Shown: one piece after another, positions 3,343 through 36,662 of the stretch | Layout of the letters: each line of letters opens with the position of its first letter | How positions within the stretch are numbered: position 1 is the stretch's first letter | Source: an uncultured Verrucomicrobiales bacterium | Lineage (GTDB): Bacteria; Verrucomicrobiota; Verrucomicrobiia; Limisphaerales; UBA1100 | Direction of reading: 5' to 3' | Assembly (NCBI GenBank): GCA_913048135.1 | Contig: CAJWVY010000005.1 | Span: 1 to 43,147 of the forward strand | Length of the DNA stretch: 43,147 bases | Made by a program: the position numbers and the translations under genes | The notes under the pieces: generated by a model | Seen by the model: only the letters and a program-made list of their open reading frames with translations | Database searches by the model: none | Told to the model about the DNA's origin: nothing

Positions 3343-4761
3343 TTACTTGAGCAACGACAAATATTTCGACAACACGCCGATGTGGTCGATGAATGTTCTG
3401 GTTTCCACACGATCCCCGAAGGTCATCCCGCGGGTTTCGAGTTTGGCTCGGGTGATCCAGCGGCCTTGAGCGTCCTGCGCAGCGATCACGGTTCGGACCT
3501 GTTTCTCCATGGACTCGGCGCGCGCGGCGCGTTGGGCGGCGGTGAGCGTCTTGGGTGTTTGTGCGGCGAGCCAGGCGGTGCGGCCTTGTTTACGCACAGC
3601 TTCGAAATAGCGAATCATACTCTCCACGCCATAGGAACTTTGGAAGCTGTAATGCGTGGGCATATCGTTGTCCCGATAGGTCAGCTGATATTCCTTCGTG
3701 AAATACAGCGGCCGGTTGGTTTGTAGTTCGTAAAACCGCGCCCACTTGCCCGGTGCGATGGCCGAGCGTCGGTACCAATGCACGGCGGGCGCCACGGCGT
3801 TCAGGTATTTGGCGTCGCCCGTGGCGAGATACAGATCGATCAAGGTGCGACAGGCGCCGACGCTTTCGCCGCCGGTGACCGAGGGAGGCTCAAACTTGCG
3901 CGCCCATGCTGGCTCCATGCGGGCGTTGTATTGCTGGGCCCACACCGGCTGCGGCTCGGGCATTTGCGCGCGCAAAATGAATTCGCCGCCGCGCCGTGCC
4001 GCCTGCAGGTATTCCGGTCTGGCGGTCACCCGATGCGCTTCCAGCGCGAGCAACACGCAGTCGCGATGGGAGTTGTCATTGAACGTGTAGTGGTTGATGT
4101 AGTTGGCCTTGGGATACACGCGCGACCACGTTTTGGGATAGCGCGCGGGCAGCACGGGAAAATCCTGCGGCTGTTTGGGCACGCCGTCGTACCGCTGCGG
4201 CCAGGCGCCGTTGGGGTACTGGGCCTCGAGCAATTTGCGCAGGCCCACATCGCGCGCGCGGCGGATGGCCTGTTCGCGCGGCGTGTTGCCCGTGGCCACC
4301 TCGCCGAGTGCCAGCAGAAAACGCAGGCAGCTTTGCGAGGTGTTGTCGTCGAAGGTCGAAATGTTTCGGCGCAGCGTCCTTTGTGGGTCGCGGAAGTCAT
4401 GTCGGTAATCCCAGCCGCCACTGGCCAGCTGCGCCTTGGCAAGCGCGCCGCCGGCGGCCAGCGCGTGGTCCAGCAGCGCGGGTTCGCCCGTGCGTTGGTA
4501 GGCTTCCAAAAAAGCCATACCCATCGAAGGCGTGCCCGGCGGCTGCAGCCACATCATCGATCGGCTCGCGCGGTTTTCGCCCGCGACCAGTTGCAGGTCT
4601 TTGGAGTAACGCCACAAATATCCGCCTTCCGCCGAGATCGACCGCATAAACGCCGCCCCCTTCAACAACGCCCCCCGCGCCTGACCTTGCGTGTCTGCGG
4701 CTCGCGCGGAGAACACGGCCAACACGCCCAGCATGGTGAGCATGAAAATCATTCGGTTCAT
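3343..4761 (-). CDS. Secreted pectate-lyase-like (Pec_lyase / PL10-like) protein
   Basis: Signal peptide MNRMIFMLTMLGVLAVFSARAAD; ASGGWDYRHDF, STFDDNTSQSCLRFL, PNGAWPQRYDG, YTFNDNSHRDCV pattern of alpha/alpha-barrel pectate lyases. Confidence 0.7.
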   Translation of the reverse strand: MNRMIFMLTMLGVLAVFSARAADTQGQARGALLKGAAFMRSISAEGGYLWRYSKDLQLVAGENRASRSMMWLQPPGTPSMGMAFLEAYQRTGEPALLDHALAAGGALAKAQLASGGWDYRHDFRDPQRTLRRNISTFDDNTSQSCLRFLLALGEVATGNTPREQAIRRARDVGLRKLLEAQYPNGAWPQRYDGVPKQPQDFPVLPARYPKTWSRVYPKANYINHYTFNDNSHRDCVLLALEAHRVTARPEYLQAARRGGEFILRAQMPEPQPVWAQQYNARMEPAWARKFEPPSVTGGESVGACRTLIDLYLATGDAKYLNAVAPAVHWYRRSAIAPGKWARFYELQTNRPLYFTKEYQLTYRDNDMPTHYSFQSSYGVESMIRYFEAVRKQGRTAWLAAQTPKTLTAAQRAARAESMEKQVRTVIAAQDAQGRWITRAKLETRGMTFGDRVETRTFIDHIGVLSKYLSLLK

Positions 4762-5655: not shown

Positions 5656-7140
5656 GTGTCATGGCACTTCGCCATGGCGATCTTCTCCCATATGGCTCCG
5701 GTTCCGCCGGGGTTTAAACCTAAGTGGCGTGATTACCTGGAGGAACACGTGGCTTTGTACCGTCGAATGCCGGAGGAGCTGACTCTGTGCGTCGAGGAAC
5801 TAGTGCCATGGTTCATTAAAAAGGTGACATGGAAGTGGGAGCCTTGGGTTGGCCCCAAGCCGGACGAGGAGATGGCCAAAGTGTGCGTGTCTTTTCTGGC
5901 ATGTCTATTAATTGTAAACCGGTCAAAAAAAGATTTAGAGCACTTCCACACCTTCGTATTTCACCCCGCAACGCTTAAAGACGATAATGGTAAAACATGG
6001 GCAGGCCATGCAAGTCCACGGGGCCAGATCGAGCAAAGTTGGCCTTCAACCCTTAGGGGAATGCAGGATGGTGAGGATAATTATTGTGTGACCATTCATG
6101 AGTTTGTGCACATGATCGATTACCGTGACCGGTCCTTCGAAAGCGTTCCTCATTTCGATTCAAGTAGTGCCATCAGGGAGTACAGGGCGTTTTTAAAATC
6201 TGAATATAAAGACCTTTGTAAAGCTTGGGAAAAAGTGAGTGGATGTGCGGCGATTCGCAAATATGCTACGTCAGACAAAGCAGAATTTCTTACCTGCGCA
6301 ACCGAATCTTTTTTTGAAAACTCTGAAAGACTAAAGTTTTTGAGGCCCCAGGTTTATAGGTGGATGCAGCGAATTTATAAAATGGACCCCCACCAATGGG
6401 CGGAACGCCGCCAATGGGCGGAACGTGTGAGTCTCGGCGAACTCAAAAATATAAGAAATTATCAGTGGGACCAATGGGATTTTAAAACGACTTGGGACAG
6501 CAAAAGAAGCCACGCTGAATTATTGTGGCCACATGGAATCTCGGCAAAGGATTATCCTGCTTGGAATGCTGTTCAAGTAGAGCGGCGCCAGGGTGAAGAG
6601 CGAGCAAGAATTGAACGTGAAGCAAGAGAAGCGGCAGAAAGAGCGGCAAGAGAGAGAAAGGAAAAAAAAGAACGGGAGCGCAAGGAAAGAGAAGCGCGAG
6701 AAAAGAGGCTGGAAAAAGAAGAGCGTGAACGTAGAGAAGAAGCAGAGCGAAAGCAGCGAGAGCGTTATTTATTGAACAACAGAACTGTGATCGTTGAATA
6801 TCCCAATGGAATGCCACAGCTGAAATACAAGCTGGTGGACGGCCACCGCGAGGGCCTGATGCAGCGATGGGACGAGCAAGGTAACTTGCGCGAGGAGACC
6901 GAATACAGTCGCGGGCGAAAACAAGGCATGGTCACCTATTACTATCCCGATGGGCAAAAGGAGATGGTAGGGTTTTACATCTTGGACGAGCGAGCGGGTT
7001 TATGGCGTGGCTGGCATGAGGACGGGACAAAAAGTTTTCAGAGCCGATATCGTGATGGACAATTGCACCAGTGGAAGCAATATCGGCACGATGGTACGGA
7101 TCAAACCTACAGCCGCGCGAAAAACCGTTTTGGCCGGTGA
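5656..7140 (+). CDS. MtfA-like (M90) zinc peptidase domain fused to charged coiled-coil and MORN/YwqK-type repeats
   Basis: HEFVHMIDYRDRSFESVPHF and DKAEFLTCATESFFENSERLKFLRPQVYRWMQRIYKMDP resemble MtfA motifs; ERK-rich segment; C-term NGMPQLKYKLVDGHREGLMQRWDEQGNLREETEYSRGRKQGMVTYYYPDGQKE. GTG at 5656; ATG 5674 also possible. Confidence 0.75.
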   Translation: MSWHFAMAIFSHMAPVPPGFKPKWRDYLEEHVALYRRMPEELTLCVEELVPWFIKKVTWKWEPWVGPKPDEEMAKVCVSFLACLLIVNRSKKDLEHFHTFVFHPATLKDDNGKTWAGHASPRGQIEQSWPSTLRGMQDGEDNYCVTIHEFVHMIDYRDRSFESVPHFDSSSAIREYRAFLKSEYKDLCKAWEKVSGCAAIRKYATSDKAEFLTCATESFFENSERLKFLRPQVYRWMQRIYKMDPHQWAERRQWAERVSLGELKNIRNYQWDQWDFKTTWDSKRSHAELLWPHGISAKDYPAWNAVQVERRQGEERARIEREAREAAERAARERKEKKERERKEREAREKRLEKEERERREEAERKQRERYLLNNRTVIVEYPNGMPQLKYKLVDGHREGLMQRWDEQGNLREETEYSRGRKQGMVTYYYPDGQKEMVGFYILDERAGLWRGWHEDGTKSFQSRYRDGQLHQWKQYRHDGTDQTYSRAKNRFGR

Positions 7141-24049: not shown

Positions 24050-26830
24050 TCACTTTTTCAGAAACGCCAGCAGATCGGCCAGCTCCTGCTGGGACATCGT
24101 TTTCTCGAGCTGATCGGGCATGAGGGAGTTGGCGGAGGCGCGGACGGATTTGATCGTCTTGCGGGGGATGGTTTTGGTGAGGCCGAGGGGCAACTTAAGG
24201 GTGAGTTGCTCGGGCGTATCCGCGGCGAGGAGGCCGGCGAAGTTTTCATCATCCTGTGTGTCCACTTCGTACATTGCGTATTGGCCGTAGACTTCTTTGT
24301 TCGGCACGATGATGTGCAGTAGCAGAGCTTCGGCGGGCTGGTTGCGCAGACCCGTGAGGTCCGGCCCCACGGCGTGGCCTTGGCCGCCGTGGGTGTGGCA
24401 GGTGGCGCAGGCGCGGGTGAATATCTTGGCGCCGTTTGCGGCGTTGCTCTTCATTTTCAAGACGGCCTTGGCGGCTTCAAAAGCTTTCATACGATCACCG
24501 CCGGCGTGTTGGGTAAAGAGTTTCTTGGCGCGGTCGCCAACCGTTTTGCTGCGCTCCAACACTTTGCGTCGAGCGGGCGTAATGGCATGGACAGGGACTG
24601 TGCCTTTTTCGAGGGCGTCCATGAGAGGCGGGTGGTGCAGGGCGCGGCTGGCGACCATGCTCAATACGGATTCCCGAACCGATGGATGGTAACTGGCCCA
24701 CGCTTTCGGTTCGAGGAGGATGGGGCTGACACGAGCATCATTTAAATTGCCCAGAGCTTGGATGGCAGCGGATTGGATATCGGGTGTGCGAAGGCCGATA
24801 TCGGTTTGATCATTGCGGGGTCTCAGCAAGCGGAGCAACGTATCTCCGGCAAAGCCGTAGTCTGTGTTGCCCATCAACTCGATGGCGGCCAAGCGGCGCG
24901 GCAACGAGATGCCGGCCACGACGGAATTCCGGGCTGAGCCAAGGGTGGATTTAATGGTAAAGTCGGCCACCACGTCCATAGGCAGTTCTTTGCGCTCATA
25001 CTGGGTCTTGATTTCGGCTGGTGTGAGGTTGGATTTCAGCGGGATGAAGTTTCGCAGGGGATGTGCATCGGGGTGGGTGGCGGTCAGCTTCACGCCTTTC
25101 TTTTTGGCTCCGAGAATCAGTCCGTTGAGAAAGGCGACACGTTCCCAAACCGAAATATTGATGGGCTCCTTCTTGAGTTCCGGTTGGGCCATTTGTGTGC
25201 CGAGGTTCCAAAAGAATATCATTTGGTCCGGCGTGCAGTCTTGCGCGACAATCTCACCCAATTCCTTCAGGGCCGTGATTAAACTGGGCCGGGCCGTGCC
25301 ATCCACTCGATACGGCTGTGACCGGATGAAATCCATAACGGCCATGGATCCTCCCTTGGAAAGCGCATTGTAAACGGCGGGGCGCATCCACTTATCGCGC
25401 GGGTCTTGCATGAGCGAAGCGGCTAAAACATTGGCCTTGCGAGAATGTTCCTGTTTGCCCAATTGCAACACCGCCAGAAACCGCTCATTCGCGTCCTTCG
25501 ACTGGGCTTGTTTCAACAAATCCTTCATTGAAGCATCAGGAAATTTGCCTTGGCGAATGGCGAGATTTTGACGGGCGGCAGCTTGGTGGGTGGCGGTGGG
25601 CTTGGGAGGGGCGGGGGTAGCCAGCTGGATGCGCCAAATGCGGCCGTGGTTTGTGCCGGCCTTGAAGGGGAGTTGACCGCGGATGGCTTCAGGCAGGTAA
25701 CGAGGGTGATCGATGTATTGGCGGACCATGTCGCACAGGTACAACGCGCCGTCGGGGCCGACAGTGGTGTGGACTGGACGAAACCATTGGTCGGGCGTGG
25801 CAAGAAAATCGCGGCCGGGCGAGGGGTGCGCGGCGGAGAATGTGGCGCCGGTGGCGGTGAGCACCTGGCGTTGCACGAGGTTTTGCGCGGGCTCGCAGAT
25901 GAAGGCGTCGCGTCCGCGGATGACGATGCCGCTGGCGCTGGTGTAGGTGCCGGCGTGTTGGCGGCTGATGAGGCTGGGGATGTAGCTCGCGGCGGTAGTG
26001 TCGGGGCTGAGCGGATAGACCTTGGCCGCGACGGGGATGAGGTTTTCAACTGTGTCAGTAAAGGGGTAATGCGGATTGCGCCGGAGCAGTCCGGGGGCGA
26101 CCACGACGTGCATCAGCGGGTTGCGGTTGCTGGAGACGAAACGATTGCCGGCGGCATCAAAGCATTGGCCGAACTGGCCCGTGCCGGCGAGGGGTTCGTA
26201 CACAAAGGTCTCCGGATGAAATCGGCCGTCCTGTCTTTTGGAAACGACCGGCTTGCGCTTGGGATGCAACGGGCTGGTCACGCTGGCATCGGTGAGTCCG
26301 CTGGTGACGTACACCCAGCCATCGGGCCCGAGCGTGGGGCTGGCGACACGGAGCTGTTCGCTGCTGCTCTTGGTGCCGAACCCGGTCAGGACAACCTGCC
26401 GCACATCCGCGCGCCCATCGCCGTTGGTGTCCTTCAGATACCAAATATCCGGCGCGCACGTGACGAACACGCCGCCTTTCCACGGCAGGATGCCATTGGG
26501 AAACGTGAAACCCTCGGCAAAAGTGGAGCGCTTTTCGAACTGCCCGTCGCCATCGGTATCCTGCAGCAACGCAACCCGGCCAAGTTTAGGGACCTCCTTG
26601 CCGTCGCCGGGCAGAAACGGGTACCCCGGGCTTTCGACCACCAGCATTCGTCCTTTCACGTCAAAACACATCGCCACCGGATCGCGCAGCTGCGGCTCGG
26701 CTGCGGCAATTTCGATGCGCGCCCCTTTCTCGATCTGGAACAACTTCAACGCCTGCGCCACGGACGGCGGCCCTTCGGCGGCCAACACGCCAAAGCCAAG
26801 CGAAAGAATCCAAACGCAAAGACAACGCAT
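24050..26830 (-). CDS. PVC-type secreted membrane-bound dehydrogenase / beta-propeller-HEAT-cytochrome c (heme-binding) protein
   Basis: Signal peptide; FDVKGRMLVVESPGYP, NGILPWKGGVFVTCAPDIWYLKDTNGDGRADVR; C-terminal ARACATCHTHGGQGHAVGPDLTGL (CxxCH). Confidence 0.88.
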   Translation of the reverse strand: MRCLCVWILSLGFGVLAAEGPPSVAQALKLFQIEKGARIEIAAAEPQLRDPVAMCFDVKGRMLVVESPGYPFLPGDGKEVPKLGRVALLQDTDGDGQFEKRSTFAEGFTFPNGILPWKGGVFVTCAPDIWYLKDTNGDGRADVRQVVLTGFGTKSSSEQLRVASPTLGPDGWVYVTSGLTDASVTSPLHPKRKPVVSKRQDGRFHPETFVYEPLAGTGQFGQCFDAAGNRFVSSNRNPLMHVVVAPGLLRRNPHYPFTDTVENLIPVAAKVYPLSPDTTAASYIPSLISRQHAGTYTSASGIVIRGRDAFICEPAQNLVQRQVLTATGATFSAAHPSPGRDFLATPDQWFRPVHTTVGPDGALYLCDMVRQYIDHPRYLPEAIRGQLPFKAGTNHGRIWRIQLATPAPPKPTATHQAAARQNLAIRQGKFPDASMKDLLKQAQSKDANERFLAVLQLGKQEHSRKANVLAASLMQDPRDKWMRPAVYNALSKGGSMAVMDFIRSQPYRVDGTARPSLITALKELGEIVAQDCTPDQMIFFWNLGTQMAQPELKKEPINISVWERVAFLNGLILGAKKKGVKLTATHPDAHPLRNFIPLKSNLTPAEIKTQYERKELPMDVVADFTIKSTLGSARNSVVAGISLPRRLAAIELMGNTDYGFAGDTLLRLLRPRNDQTDIGLRTPDIQSAAIQALGNLNDARVSPILLEPKAWASYHPSVRESVLSMVASRALHHPPLMDALEKGTVPVHAITPARRKVLERSKTVGDRAKKLFTQHAGGDRMKAFEAAKAVLKMKSNAANGAKIFTRACATCHTHGGQGHAVGPDLTGLRNQPAEALLLHIIVPNKEVYGQYAMYEVDTQDDENFAGLLAADTPEQLTLKLPLGLTKTIPRKTIKSVRASANSLMPDQLEKTMSQQELADLLAFLKK

Positions 26831-26987: not shown

Positions 26988-28901
26988 ATGCATTTTTTGA
27001 AACTGGCGGCGGCGGCTTTCTTATTGATGGGGTCCACTCATGCGACTGATCTGGAGCGGATCAAGTACAACAATCCCGGGTTGAAGGTGGATCTTGGCGT
27101 GGGGCTGTGGGCGTGGCCGATGCCGGTGGATTGGGATGGGGATGGCGATCTCGATTTGGTGGTCGATAGTCCGTGCAAGCCATACAATGGGATTTGGTTT
27201 TTCGAGAACCCGGGCGGTAGCAAGACGCCGGTGTTCAAGGCGGGCAAACGTTTGCGCGGCTCAATGCGCAACATTCAGGTTAGTTGGGTGGACGGCAAAC
27301 CACGCTTTTTGATTCCCGGCAAGGAAGTGTCGGCCGATCTGCAGGAGCAGACGCGTGTGTATCCGGTCGATCGCGTGGAACGGCATCGGAAGATTCGCGC
27401 GAACCAATGGAAGTACGTGGATTACAACGGCGATGGCGCGCTCGACCTGCTGGCTGCCGTGGGCATTTGGGATGATTACGGCTGGGACAATGCTTACAAC
27501 GCAGAGGGCGAATGGACCAACGGCCCGTTGCACGGTTACCTCTATCTGATGCTCAACGAGGGGACCACCGCCGCGCCGAAGTACGCCGCGCCGGCCAAGG
27601 TGCAGGCGGCTGGCAAGCCGGTGGATGTGTACGGGCGGCCGTCGCCGAACTTTGCGGACTTCGATGGGGACGGCGATCTCGATCTGTTGTGCGGCGAGTT
27701 TGTGGACAGCTTCACGTATTTTGAAAACACCGGCTCGCGCAAGGCGCCGAAATATGCCGCCGGCCGCAAGCTCACGCATCAGGGTAAAACGTTGACCATG
27801 GATTTGGAAATGATTTTGCCGAGCGCGGTGGATTGGGATGGCGATGGCGACATCGACCTCATTGTGGGCGATGAAGACGGCCGCGTGGCGCTGGTCGAAC
27901 ATACCGGCAAGGTGCGTGATGGACTGCCGCAGTTTTTGCCGCCGGTTTATTTTCAACAGGAAGCCGACGAGGTGAAGTTCGGCGCGTTGTCTACGCCGGT
28001 GGGGTTTGATTGGGATGGAGACGGTGATGAGGACATCATCTGCGGCAACACCGCCGGCCACATTGCGTTCATCGAAAATCTCAGCGGCCCAAAAGTTGAA
28101 CGGCCACGGTGGGCCGCGCCGCAGTTGCTGGAAGCCGGCAGCCAGACGCTTCGCATCATGGCCGGCCCGAACGGCTCCATTCAGGGCCCGTGCGAACGCA
28201 AGTGGGGCTACACCACGCAGACGGTGGCTGATTGGGATCACGATGGGCTGCCGGATTTGATCGTCAATTCTATCCTCGGCAAGGTCGTGTGGTATCGCAA
28301 CATCGGCACGCGACGCGCGCCCAAGCTTGCTGGCGCTCAGCCAGTGGTAGTGGAATGGCGTGAACCCCAACCCAGCTTGAACTGGGGCTGGATGAAGCCG
28401 GAAGGGAAGGGTCTGCTTACCCAATGGCGCACTACGCCGGTGGTGGTGGACTGGAACGGGGATGATCTGAACGATCTGATCATGCTCGATCACGAAGGAT
28501 ACCTCGCATATTTCCGCCGTGAACGACGCAATGGCCGAGAGGTGCTCGCCCCGCCTCGCCGCATTTTTGAAACCCAAAAATCCGGATACGTGCGCCTCAA
28601 CACCCGAACCGCTGGTGGGAGTGGACGTCGTAAGCTTTGTGTGGTGGATTGGGATGGTGACGGGGCCTTAGACGTACTCGCCAATAGTCCTAACGCCGAA
28701 CTCTGGAAAAATGTTGGATCCCGTGAAGGTATGACTCGACTCGTTAATAAAGGAACACTCTTCGAACGCAATATTTCTAGCCACACCACCAGCCCTACCG
28801 TAGTGGATTGGAACGGTGACAACAGGCCTGATCTATTAGTAGGAGCTGAAGACGGGTTCTTATACTACGGACGGAATCCGCACACGCCGGAGGGACGCTA
28901 G
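26988..28901 (+). CDS. Secreted FG-GAP/VCBS-repeat protein (nine DxDxDG-type repeats)
   Basis: DWDGDGDLDLVV, DYNGDGALDLLA, DFDGDGDLDLLC, DWDGDGDIDLIV, DWDGDGDEDIIC, DWDHDGLPDLIV, DWNGDDLNDLIM, DWDGDGALDVLA, DWNGDNRPDLLV; signal peptide. Confidence 0.9.
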   Translation: MHFLKLAAAAFLLMGSTHATDLERIKYNNPGLKVDLGVGLWAWPMPVDWDGDGDLDLVVDSPCKPYNGIWFFENPGGSKTPVFKAGKRLRGSMRNIQVSWVDGKPRFLIPGKEVSADLQEQTRVYPVDRVERHRKIRANQWKYVDYNGDGALDLLAAVGIWDDYGWDNAYNAEGEWTNGPLHGYLYLMLNEGTTAAPKYAAPAKVQAAGKPVDVYGRPSPNFADFDGDGDLDLLCGEFVDSFTYFENTGSRKAPKYAAGRKLTHQGKTLTMDLEMILPSAVDWDGDGDIDLIVGDEDGRVALVEHTGKVRDGLPQFLPPVYFQQEADEVKFGALSTPVGFDWDGDGDEDIICGNTAGHIAFIENLSGPKVERPRWAAPQLLEAGSQTLRIMAGPNGSIQGPCERKWGYTTQTVADWDHDGLPDLIVNSILGKVVWYRNIGTRRAPKLAGAQPVVVEWREPQPSLNWGWMKPEGKGLLTQWRTTPVVVDWNGDDLNDLIMLDHEGYLAYFRRERRNGREVLAPPRRIFETQKSGYVRLNTRTAGGSGRRKLCVVDWDGDGALDVLANSPNAELWKNVGSREGMTRLVNKGTLFERNISSHTTSPTVVDWNGDNRPDLLVGAEDGFLYYGRNPHTPEGR

Positions 28902-30133
28902 GAATCTTTGTCGTCCTTTTTATCAACGTCCGAGTCCAAATCCATACTGAAGAGCTCCTTGTAGGCATCCACACCGGCAGCATCAAGTGGTTCGCCGCAG
29001 TTGTGACAGAATTGTGCTTCAAGCCGATGGCCTTCTGCACCGCAGTTAATGCAACTCCGAGCAGTATTAATGTCGCGTTGCCCCCCACCGGGAACAGGTA
29101 GTTCTGCCCCACAAACATAGCATCGCCGTGCTCCGTAGGCATGACCTTTGGCATCACACTCAAGGCATTTAATTTCGAAGGGATCCGTCTGGGAGCCGGC
29201 TCCAGACATCTCTGTTGATACAATTCCGCCAATAGCCACGCCCAAAATACTATAACCTAAAATCATTACCATGGCGGCAATGAATTGCCCTTGCGGTGTG
29301 ATTGGCGAAATGTCGCCGTACCCTACAGTGGTTAATGTGACGATGGCCCAGTAAACGCCTTTTGGGATGCTGTCAAACTGCTCATTAAATGGTCGATAAA
29401 CCTCTTCATCGTCGGCGAGCCGGTTCGCTTCGCTCTCGCCACTTAACGTTACCATTACTTCGACCTCACTTGCTGTCGTGACACGGGCATCTTTTGAATC
29501 AGGGTATTTCCCAATCCAGATACGATCATCCACTTTAAGCTCTTGCCGATCCTTTACTTTCACCGGCTGTCCCTCGATTACAAACATGAGGGAGCCAAAA
29601 ATAGTTACGAGAATTAGGATTGCTGTGAGAAAAACACTGATCTTCTTAGAGTTACGCTTCAGGGCTTCAGCAATTTTGTTTAGGCCGGTAACATAAGAGT
29701 TCATCCCTAAAATACGGAATACTCTTAAAACGCGGACAAAACGGATCATCAACATCACTTCGGCCCCTTGAAAAACCAGGCCGAGGTAACTGGGCAGAAT
29801 AGCTAATAGATCGATCACTCCCCAAAAGCTTGTGGCGTACATGCGAGGGGATTTCACACACCAAAGGCGGACAAAATATTCCAGCGTGAACCCGATCGTG
29901 AAAGCCCATTCCAAGGTGTTCAACAGATCGCGCTGATTAGGGTGAATCCCCGGAATAGTCTCGATCATCGTGGCCCCTACGCTGAGTAGGATACAAATGA
30001 TCAATAACACATCGAATTGCTTGCCCGCCGGGGTATCGGCTTCGAAGATTATTTCATGAACCCGCTTTTGCAGGTCAGTTGGCTCGTTCCCTCCTCCGGA
30101 CATATCCGTGGGATTCCTATAACCGAAACTCAC
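28898..30133 (-). CDS. Voltage-gated-type potassium channel with two C-terminal zinc ribbons
   Basis: S4-like MIRFVRVLRVFRILGM; selectivity filter TLTTVGYGDISP; CLECDAKGHAYGARRCYVC and CINCGAEGHRLEAQFCHNC. Confidence 0.9.
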   Translation of the reverse strand: MSFGYRNPTDMSGGGNEPTDLQKRVHEIIFEADTPAGKQFDVLLIICILLSVGATMIETIPGIHPNQRDLLNTLEWAFTIGFTLEYFVRLWCVKSPRMYATSFWGVIDLLAILPSYLGLVFQGAEVMLMIRFVRVLRVFRILGMNSYVTGLNKIAEALKRNSKKISVFLTAILILVTIFGSLMFVIEGQPVKVKDRQELKVDDRIWIGKYPDSKDARVTTASEVEVMVTLSGESEANRLADDEEVYRPFNEQFDSIPKGVYWAIVTLTTVGYGDISPITPQGQFIAAMVMILGYSILGVAIGGIVSTEMSGAGSQTDPFEIKCLECDAKGHAYGARRCYVCGAELPVPGGGQRDINTARSCINCGAEGHRLEAQFCHNCGEPLDAAGVDAYKELFSMDLDSDVDKKDDKDS

Positions 30134-33092: not shown

Positions 33093-33377
33093 TTGGCATT
33101 ACTAACCCTCCGGGTCGGTTCATACTTCAGGTTGCTCATGATGTAGTGTTCGTTGATTTGTTGTGGTGCGCGGACTCAGTCGTTACAGGCGGCGCGGGTA
33201 TGCCTGATGCCGACGAAGTTCAGGGGTCTGCTCGCGTTTCTCTAATCGAAAAAAAGCCTATACGGTTTCGTTGCCGAAGCGTTTTACGAAGAAGCTCCAA
33301 TGTGCGAGCGTTGTTAAGTGAAAAGTAATGCCTTTTTCTTCTCGATTCACTCCAAAATCGATACCCTCGGTCCTTCA

Positions 33378-36300
33378 ATGATGAAGACTTTGTTTTCTGT
33401 ATTCAGCGTGCTCGTGGCCGCTTCGGTGATGGCCGCGGATTTGCAACCGCCCAAGAGCGTGGAGGTGAAGCCTGCCTCCAACGAGGGCGCCGTTGCCATG
33501 AAAGGCTTCGAGGTGGCGCCGGGGTTGAAGCTCAGTCTGGTGGCCGCCGAACCATTGCTGGCTAATCCGGTGGCGTTCGATATCGACGAGCAGGGCCGCT
33601 TTTATGTAGTGGAAAGTTTCCGCCTGCACAAGGGCGTGATGGATATCCGCGGTCACATGAACTGGCTGGACGAAGAGCTCGCCTCGCAAAGCACCGAGGA
33701 TATGCGCGCGATGTTTCGCCGCTACAAGGTGCCCGGTCTGACGGATTATTCCGATCGCGTCCGGCAATTGGTTGATCGCGATGGTGACGGCGTGATGGAT
33801 CACGCGACGGTGTTTGCCGATGGATTCAATGACGAGGTGGACGGCCTGGCCGCCGGCGTGCTCGCGCGCAATGGCAAGGTGTGGTTCACCAACATTCCCC
33901 ACTTGTGGCTTTTGGAGGATAAGAACGGTGACGGCAAGGCGGATACGAAACAAAGCTTGGCCAGCGGCTTTGGGGTGCGCGTCGGTTTTCTGGGGCACGA
34001 TCTGCATGGCCTTCGGCAGGGACCTGATGGCCGCATTTATTTCAGCATCGGCGACCGGGCGGCATCGGTCACCACGAAAGACGGGCGCAAATTGCACACG
34101 CCGGAGTACGGCACCATTTACCGCTGTGAACCCGATGGATCCGATCTGGAGTTGTACCACATCGGATTGCGCAATCCGCAGGAGTTGGCCTTTGACGCGC
34201 ACGGCAACCTGTTTACCGGCGACAACAATTCCGACGGCGGCGATCCCGCGCGCTGGGTCAACGCCGTGGAAGGCGGCGACAGCGGCTGGCGCATTGGCTG
34301 GCAGTTTCTTGAGGGAGCCCCGTGGACCACGCGCCGCGGCCCGTGGCTGGATGAGCGCATGTGTTTCCCCGACGGCAAAGCCGCCCATCGCATTCCGCCC
34401 GTAGCCAATATCGGCAATGGCCCATCGGGGCTGACCTATTATCCCGGCGTCGGCTTGGGCGATCAGTACGCCAATATGTTTTTCATGTGCGATTTCAAAG
34501 GCAGCCCCGCGCGCAGCGGCGTTCACACCATTCGCAACACGCCGGTGGGCGCGCACTTTAAGGTGGGGCAAACCGGTCGGCTGGTATGGAAGACGCTGGT
34601 GACCGATGTGGAGTTCGGCTTCGATGGGCACGCCTATATTTCTGACTGGGTCAACGGCTGGGCCATGACTGGCAAGGGCCGCATTTATCGTATCGCTAAT
34701 CCCAAGCAAACCTTGAGCAATGCGCCCTCGGTGCAGGAGCTGTTCCGCAAGGGCTTCGACAAGATCAACGCCAACGGCCTGCGCAATCTCCTGAGTCATC
34801 CGGATATGCGCGTGAGACAGGCCGCCCAATTCCAACTGGTGGCCAAAGCCGACACCAAATCGCTGGGAGGCATTGCCCGGCAAGGCAAAGGGCTGGCGCG
34901 GCTGCACGCGGTCTGGGGTCTCGGCCAACTGGCGCGCGACGGGCAAAATCAAGACGGCGCGCTGGTACCGCTGCTGAGTGATGCGGACGGCGAAGTGCAA
35001 ACGCAGGCGGCCAAGATGCTCGGTGAAGCCAAGTCCAAGGCCGCTGTGCCCGGCTTGATTAAGCTGCTCGGCAGCGACAACGCCCGCGCTCAGGCGCAGG
35101 CGGCGATTGCGCTCAGTAAAAATGGCGGCAACTACACGGACGCCGTGGTGGCCATGCTGCGGCGTAACGATGATAGTGACCCGATCGTGCGCCATGGCGG
35201 TATCATGGCGTTGCAGGCTTTGGGCAAGGCCTTGCCGGTGGTGCAATTGAGCCGGGACAAATCGGCGGCCGTGCGGTTGGCGACCTTGATCGCGTTGCGG
35301 CGTGAGGGCAATCCGGCCGTGACCACGTTCCTGGCCGACGCCCAACCGCACATCGTGCTGGAAGCCGCACGCGCGATTGCCGATGAACACATTGACGTGG
35401 CCATGCCGAAGCTGGCGAAGCTGGCGGCGCAGCCGAAGCTCGGCAAGTCCGTGATGCGTCGGGCGCTCAACGCCAATTATCGCCTCGGCCAAGCCGACGC
35501 CTTGGCGGCGGTGGCCGCGGAGGATCAACACGCGGATTTGGCCCGGGGAGAAGCCTTGAACCTGCTGGGCGCCTGGGCCAAGCCGTCCGGGCGCGACCGC
35601 ATCAGCGGTCTTTGGCGCCCGGTGGCGGATCGGGATAACAAGGGCGCTGCAGCGGCCTTGCGCGACAAGATCGATGGACTCCTCCGCAATGCCACCGGCG
35701 TGGTGCAAATGGAAGCCATCGGCGCGGCTCGTCGGTTGCGTCTGGAGGAAGCCGGTCCGGCGCTGTTGGCGATTGTGAAAAACAAACAGGGCGGCCGCGC
35801 GCGGACTGAGGCGCTGAAGGCGCTGGGCGAACTGGAGACAGATCAACTGGCCGAAGCGGTGGAGATTGCCAGTGCCTCACGGGACGGCCGTTTGCGGCAG
35901 GAAGCCACGCGGCTGGCGCCCAAGGTGAAGCCGGCCGATGCCATGGGGCGTTTGGTGAAGGTGCTGCAAACCGGCAGCATAGGCGAAAAGCAAAGCGCGA
36001 TTTTGGCCATGGGCGATCTGAAGGACGGTTCGGCGGACAAGGTGTTGGCCGGGCTGCTCGATGATCTGTTGGCCAAGAAGGTGTCCGCCCCGTTGCAGCT
36101 GGAAGTGCTGGAGGCGGCGGCGAAGCGGAAGGACAAAACAGTGGCGGCGAAGCTGGCGAAGTTTGAGGCCAGCCGGCCAACCCCGGCGGAGAATTTCTTC
36201 GCGCTGGAACCATATCTGGAAACGCTGGAAGGCGGCGATGTGGCCAAGGGGAAGAAATCCTTTTTCGAAAACGTGGCCATCAGCTGCGCGCGTTGCCATC

Positions 36301-36662
36301 AGGTGGGCAACCAGGGTGGTGAAGTGGGGCCGCGGCTCGACGGCATTGGCGCGAAGGTGGATCGCAAGCATCTGCTGGAATCCATCGTGAACCCCGGCGC
36401 GCAGATCGCTGAGGGATTTGATTTCTTTCTCGTGACACTCAAGAACGGCAAGGCCGTGGCGGGTATCACGCGTAAGGAAACCAAAACGGACATCACCCTG
36501 ATCTCACCGGAGGATGGGTTGGTGACGATCAAGAAGGTGGACATCAAGACGAAGCAAAAAGGCCCGAGCGGCATGCCGCCGGGATTACAGGCGGTGATTT
36601 CCAAACGCGAATTGCGCGACGTGATCGAGTATCTAGCGAGCCTGAAACAGGCACCAAAGTAG
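33378..36662 (+). CDS. PVC-type secreted membrane-bound dehydrogenase / HEAT-repeat / heme-binding protein
   Basis: Signal peptide MMKTLFSVFSVLVAASVMAAD; FDIDEQGRFYVVESFR; HEAT-rich middle; VAISCARCHQVGNQGGEVGPRLDGIG (CxxCH). Confidence 0.9.
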   Translation: MMKTLFSVFSVLVAASVMAADLQPPKSVEVKPASNEGAVAMKGFEVAPGLKLSLVAAEPLLANPVAFDIDEQGRFYVVESFRLHKGVMDIRGHMNWLDEELASQSTEDMRAMFRRYKVPGLTDYSDRVRQLVDRDGDGVMDHATVFADGFNDEVDGLAAGVLARNGKVWFTNIPHLWLLEDKNGDGKADTKQSLASGFGVRVGFLGHDLHGLRQGPDGRIYFSIGDRAASVTTKDGRKLHTPEYGTIYRCEPDGSDLELYHIGLRNPQELAFDAHGNLFTGDNNSDGGDPARWVNAVEGGDSGWRIGWQFLEGAPWTTRRGPWLDERMCFPDGKAAHRIPPVANIGNGPSGLTYYPGVGLGDQYANMFFMCDFKGSPARSGVHTIRNTPVGAHFKVGQTGRLVWKTLVTDVEFGFDGHAYISDWVNGWAMTGKGRIYRIANPKQTLSNAPSVQELFRKGFDKINANGLRNLLSHPDMRVRQAAQFQLVAKADTKSLGGIARQGKGLARLHAVWGLGQLARDGQNQDGALVPLLSDADGEVQTQAAKMLGEAKSKAAVPGLIKLLGSDNARAQAQAAIALSKNGGNYTDAVVAMLRRNDDSDPIVRHGGIMALQALGKALPVVQLSRDKSAAVRLATLIALRREGNPAVTTFLADAQPHIVLEAARAIADEHIDVAMPKLAKLAAQPKLGKSVMRRALNANYRLGQADALAAVAAEDQHADLARGEALNLLGAWAKPSGRDRISGLWRPVADRDNKGAAAALRDKIDGLLRNATGVVQMEAIGAARRLRLEEAGPALLAIVKNKQGGRARTEALKALGELETDQLAEAVEIASASRDGRLRQEATRLAPKVKPADAMGRLVKVLQTGSIGEKQSAILAMGDLKDGSADKVLAGLLDDLLAKKVSAPLQLEVLEAAAKRKDKTVAAKLAKFEASRPTPAENFFALEPYLETLEGGDVAKGKKSFFENVAISCARCHQVGNQGGEVGPRLDGIGAKVDRKHLLESIVNPGAQIAEGFDFFLVTLKNGKAVAGITRKETKTDITLISPEDGLVTIKKVDIKTKQKGPSGMPPGLQAVISKRELRDVIEYLASLKQAPK

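Follow-up and report, generated by a model that had tools for sequence, protein, structure and literature searches.

The window, by which we mean the whole stretch of 43,147 nucleotides that was analysed, carries a gene whose product combines an M90 peptidase domain, a long charged helix and a sheet of MORN_2 repeats. The first-pass annotation had placed an open reading frame on the forward strand at 5656-7140 and had read these three parts from it. The frame is present, and the architecture was borne out by Pfam, AlphaFold2 and Foldseek. In genus g3 the orthologues have an in-frame stop shortly upstream of a conserved MAI[FV]SH start, therefore the ATG at 5674 is the likely start and not the GTG at 5656; all residue numbers are counted from this ATG. 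A chance motif or frame artefact was ruled out by the 130-bit domain match, the orthologues and the selection on the gene. Where it could be estimated, dN/dS stayed far under 1 in the peptidase part, in the helix and in the MORN part, which indicates that the gene is under purifying selection.

In genera g1 and g3 the gene has fabI on one side and, on the other, a conserved block that usually starts with a radical SAM gene. Other genes fill the same interval in genera g2 and g4. No pathway can be read from the neighbouring genes that are conserved (for fabI, a radical SAM protein, an MFS protein and spermidine synthase), since synteny extends over the entire block. A pectic acid lyase-like protein (PF09492) is encoded next to fabI at 3343-4761 on the reverse strand; it is kept in the g1 loci and was unmatched in the g3 loci examined. 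Elsewhere in the window, at 24053-26830 (reverse strand) and 33318-36659 (forward strand), two large proteins of the DUF7133 / PVC-type heme-binding CxxCH kind are encoded, which have HEAT repeats and cytochrome c domains. The product of a second AT-rich stretch, at 28901-30133 (reverse strand), is a voltage-gated ion channel (Ion_trans) whose C-terminus carries a double zinc ribbon.

Table 1. Features of the M90-helix-MORN_2 gene in the window, and two tandem M90 proteins of the host family.
Feature	Position	Strand	Basis or remark
M90-helix-MORN_2 gene	5674..7140	+	488 aa; ORF, conserved start region; likely ATG 5674, not GTG 5656
Peptidase M90 (MtfA) domain, residues 14-236	5713..6381	+	PF06167, 130.3 bits; Foldseek 3dl1/3khi
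HExxH zinc motif (H142, E143, H146)	6097..6111	+	invariant in 45 M90 sequences
Yx6E motif (Y197, E204)	6262..6285	+	invariant in 45 M90 sequences
Single continuous charged helix, residues 294-368, ~11 nm (predicted)	6553..6777	+	AlphaFold2; i/i+4 test
MORN_2 sheet, residues 370-480, ~4.5 repeats of 23-24 aa, ten strands	6781..7113	+	Pfam, AlphaFold2, Foldseek
Mosaic block, catalytic region	6000..6240	+	diverges from nearest relative G018; separates G000 from G018
Mosaic block, MORN region	6840..7080	+	common to G011, a more distant relative; replaced in G014, which it separates from the rest
Tandem M90 protein L106	G015:C249 4712-9502		1597 aa; six domains, four with HExxH, two degenerate
Tandem M90 protein L107	G017:C87 1723-5127		1135 aa; four domains, three with HExxH, one degenerate

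The N-terminal part of the protein matched PF06167 (Peptidase_M90) far above the Pfam cut-off of 26.2 bits and over profile positions 15-243 of 243. The zinc motif reads HEFVHMID (residues 142-149) and is followed further downstream by Tyr197 and Glu204, so that both the MtfA-like zinc motif and the downstream signature proposed from the sequence were found intact. This arrangement of HExxH and Yx6E has been described for MtfA (PMC6356308), and by analogy with MtfA Tyr197 would be the catalytic tyrosine and Glu204 the third zinc ligand. All five residues occurred without exception in the 45-sequence M90 alignment, which included 11 members of the window's own class (class A). One orthologue of the class outside this alignment, from a 61%-complete MAG, has a Yx6E motif that is one residue shorter, and in the orthologue L012 (G008) the motif reads HEFGHMLE, with Glu at the position of the usually invariant Asp after HExxH. 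AlphaFold2, run on the M90 alignment, predicted the peptidase domain confidently (most 10-residue blocks at pLDDT 83-98). Foldseek matched it to Klebsiella MtfA (3dl1, target TM-score 0.86; 3khi, 0.85), and the MtfA-like fold for which a structure prediction had been suggested was thus found. The MtfA equivalog model, NCBIfam NF011939 (DgsA anti-repressor), gave 41.6 bits, under its cut-off of 400. With the zinc site intact a peptidase is expected from knowledge of the family, and we infer that the window protein probably has zinc-dependent peptidase activity.

Between the peptidase domain and the repeats the first-pass annotation had noted a charged stretch of about 55 residues. The stretch is present and longer than stated, 75 residues, predicted as one unbroken helix (block pLDDT mostly 83-95, and 76 near both ends). 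At 1.5 Å per residue, about 75 helical residues span roughly 11 nm. The region is 70% charged; its excess of opposite charges at i/i+4 was equalled by none of 2000 shuffles, and no heptad pattern was detected, the best a/d hydrophobic fraction (with Ala) being 0.35. Of the two forms suggested earlier, a single alpha helix or a coiled coil, the charge pattern points to the single alpha helix, and the coiled coil was ruled out for the window protein and its near relatives by the missing heptad and the strong i/i+4 pattern. Most orthologues hold the i/i+4 pattern. L014 and L015 show it more weakly, and L017 of genus g5, the most distant orthologue, lacks it and may form a coiled coil.

MORN_2-like repeats had been claimed for the C-terminus. 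AlphaFold2 predicted a ten-strand MORN-like sheet there, which Foldseek matched to SET7/9 and MORN1 proteins, and the claim holds on structure, while the PF07661 score of the window protein (25.8 bits) stays under the Pfam cut-off of 29.6. MORN_2 was matched at E<=0.01 in all 13 members of class A, and a class B relative of the same layout with an acidic linker, L109, scored 39.1 bits, over the cut-off. The hinge at residues 246-290 and both ends of the protein were poorly predicted and pTM was 0.57; the model therefore does not fix how the parts are placed towards one another.

Orthologues with the M90-helix-MORN layout were present in 16 of the 20 genomes of the host family, which comprise five genera, including two fragments at contig edges (G007 and G013). 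The layout was found in 8/9 genomes of g1, 7/7 of g3 and 1/1 of g5, and in 0/1 of g2 and 0/2 of g4. The survey, which among the PVC phyla covered Verrucomicrobiota, took in 320 genomes of the order and a sample of 388 from the whole phylum, and no M90-MORN fusion was detected in the 300 other genomes of the order, nor in 387 of those sampled from the phylum. In all M90 loci that were fetched from outside the host family, the protein ends no more than about 27 residues past the domain; the unfetched ones were judged only by the length of the frame and by whether MORN was matched in it, which was never the case. One scan of genome contigs returned close relatives only. Plasmid records gave only domain-length partial M90 matches, none spanning 80% of the query, and no relative was found among viral contigs. 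A literature search gave no account of M90-MORN proteins. It had been considered that the architecture might already be catalogued as common in PVC bacteria; in this phylum it was found in one family only. We concluded that M90-helix-MORN is an architecture, apparently not described before, within a known peptidase family, and that in the searched phylum it is restricted to one bacterial family.

The sequences indicate that M90 has radiated within the host family. The genome of the window encodes, in addition, a separate canonical M90 protein of 276 aa. Other members of the family carry M90 joined to MORN_2 by an acidic, E/P-rich linker (class B; L023/L108 and L026/L109), M90 with C-terminal membrane helices (L019, L025, L111) or M90 with N-terminal membrane helices (L027, L028, L030, L110), and in the order survey these membrane-helix paralogues occurred in the host family only. 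Two proteins, L106 and L107, hold tandem M90 domains behind a hydrophobic N-terminal region (Table 1); for L107 Pfam counts five M90 stretches. In the tree, where some joins involving tandem domains were flagged as long-branch risks, the canonical M90 proteins formed one clade (100/100) with the window gene outside it. Both MORN classes, with ER/K or acidic linker, formed one clade as well (98/94), the acidic-linker class being sister to the window class, and a single origin of M90-MORN followed by a change of linker is therefore the simplest account.

By hydropathy, classes A and B have no membrane segment and the window protein has no signal peptide. The canonical copies of the family have N-terminal hydrophobic segments and class C has C-terminal ones. 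N-terminal segments were detected in part of class D, and in the rest they were seen by eye further upstream. Because the hydropathy test covered only about 60 residues ahead of the domain, for the tandem proteins and two class D proteins the N-terminal segments were assigned by inspection of the sequence. The divergent soluble paralogue L112 has no MORN, so a rule of "membrane anchor or MORN" is not absolute.

From these observations we propose that the window protein is a cytoplasmic MtfA-type zinc peptidase, which a rigid helix of about 11 nm would space from a MORN_2 sheet that docks onto a partner, and we hold this reading to be evenly balanced between right and wrong. It is in line with the regulated or targeted protease suggested in the first-pass annotation, which likewise has the rank of a proposal. 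A cytoplasmic location is suggested since neither a signal peptide nor a membrane helix was detected by hydropathy. The rigid charged helix would hold the catalytic domain about 11 nm away from the sheet; single alpha helices are known to act as rigid connectors (PMC5812594), hence the spacer role. The sheet would bind a partner, which may be a protein, possibly membrane-associated, or the substrate itself, and this binding would set where and on what the peptidase acts, presumably a regulatory substrate. Most other M90 members of the family are predicted to be membrane-anchored, and the MORN sheet may be a replacement targeting device. It is taken as the targeting part because both MORN classes lack the membrane helices of most family paralogues, and because the MORN repeat has been shown to be a protein-protein interaction module and the eukaryotic TbMORN1 did not bind membranes (PMC7725318); the latter finding also makes a membrane role of the sheet weak.

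The proposed protein can be compared with three known systems. With MtfA (PF06167; structures 3dl1, 3khi and 9srw) it shares the fold, the HExxH and Yx6E motifs and a cytoplasmic location without signal peptide. However, MtfA stops after the peptidase domain, whereas the window protein adds the charged helix and the sheet, lies outside the canonical verrucomicrobial M90 clade and comes from a genome in which the Mlc/PtsG partners were not found. With MORN_2 proteins (PF07661; YwqK-type, LIC20035-type; MORN1 6t4d, 6t6q and 6t68) it has in common the repeat of 23-24 residues, the beta-hairpin sheet and the MORN-like fold. Bacterial MORN_2 proteins are known as stand-alone or secreted proteins, whereas in the window protein a zinc peptidase carries the sheet as its C-terminal module. 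The helix resembles the ER/K single-alpha-helix linkers of myosins and INCENP in being rich in charge, with i/i+4 E-K/R pairs, few hydrophobic residues and one long predicted helix, but it joins a bacterial peptidase to MORN repeats and is known here from sequence and model.

It was also considered that the sheet folds back by way of a semi-rigid helix and gates the active site of its own protein, no partner being involved. The high confidence of the helix in the AlphaFold2 model agrees with such regulation in cis, and single helices of this charged type govern the effective concentration of the domains that they connect. On the other hand, with a pTM of 0.57 and low confidence at 246-290 the model gives no support for a contact between the domains, and class B has its MORN part on an acidic, probably unstructured linker. 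We regard regulation in cis as rather unlikely.

The gene is AT-richer than its neighbours, as noted in the first-pass annotation (GC3 0.50 vs 0.66-0.78 in the neighbouring genes). The separate acquisition at which this was taken to hint was borne out in part. A recent foreign insertion was ruled out, since genera g1 and g3 share the site and its synteny, but alleles have been exchanged in place between species. Phage or plasmid cargo was rejected as well, no viral-contig relative having been found and the plasmid M90 matches being partial only. Identity to G018 is 91-98% over most of the contig around the gene, while the block at 6121 is 73% identical, the lowest of 239 blocks of 120 bp over the aligned contig; other stretches of the window, for example at 26-28 kb, diverge from G018 too. 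Against G018, dS was 0.35 in the gene and 0.11-0.23 in the flanking genes; against G011 it was 0.47 in the gene and 0.6-1.5 in the flanks. Trees of the flanks grouped G000 with G018 (99/98) and these two with G014 (100/100), whereas the tree of the MORN part grouped G000, G018 and G011 (96/95). The flanks rejected the latter group (p 1e-4) and the M90 part rejected G000 with G018 (p 2e-5), both p-values being indicative because the tested clades were picked after the identity profile was seen. The gene is retained vertically at one locus, with allele exchange of the catalytic and MORN segments. The simplest reading of the mosaic is recombination between species at a fixed locus, and part of it could stem from chimeric assembly of the MAGs. 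The coincidence of the exchanged blocks with the catalytic and MORN segments was counted in favour of the docking proposal.

The same mosaic, in conflict with the trees of the flanks, would also be expected if the gene encoded a fast-recombining conflict or recognition protein, such as a sensor, an immunity protein or an anti-phage protease, with allele exchange diversifying its catalytic and MORN parts; the AT-rich composition and the family-specific burst of M90 architectures are in line with this. It is improbable nevertheless: every part of the gene has a dN/dS far under 1, the gene has housekeeping synteny and no mobile context, divergence from G018 is also seen in other stretches of the window, and assembly chimeras could mimic part of the mosaic. 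Membership in a defence family was rejected, as no match to defence families was obtained, and a viral-contig relative was likewise not found. A wider view, in which the catalytic domain has been repeatedly refitted with membrane helices, with MORN on a rod and in tandem active and dead copies, and in which recombination reshuffles catalytic and docking segments as in a recognition or conflict system, may apply but seems unlikely to us.

A non-catalytic scaffold or binding protein with a retained M90 fold would have a precedent in the degenerate M90 domains without HExxH of the tandem paralogues, but the invariance of the five active-site residues over 45 sequences, 11 of the window's class, makes this quite doubtful. 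That the protein is an MtfA orthologue titrating an Mlc-like ROK repressor for PTS sugar uptake, the MORN part being decoration, is very improbable in spite of the shared catalytic fold and motifs, because neither a PTS EIIC nor an HTH-bearing ROK protein was found in the 95.5%-complete host genome, its only two ROK proteins have frames of 332 and 303 aa which the ROK domain fills, so that no room is left for a DNA-binding domain, and the canonical M90 is a separate gene in another clade; the E. coli MtfA role (Mlc/PtsG) is thus unlikely for the window protein.

MtfA is known almost only as an Mlc-titrating, peptidase-like factor of enteric bacteria, although M90 is widespread. A family without the E. 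coli partners, in which M90 occurs in soluble, membrane-anchored, MORN-tethered and tandem forms, provides a natural set on what M90 peptidases cleave and how they are directed. If the sheet docks the peptidase as proposed, the MORN classes would offer a bacterial case for testing a MORN sheet as a docking module on an enzyme with measurable output.
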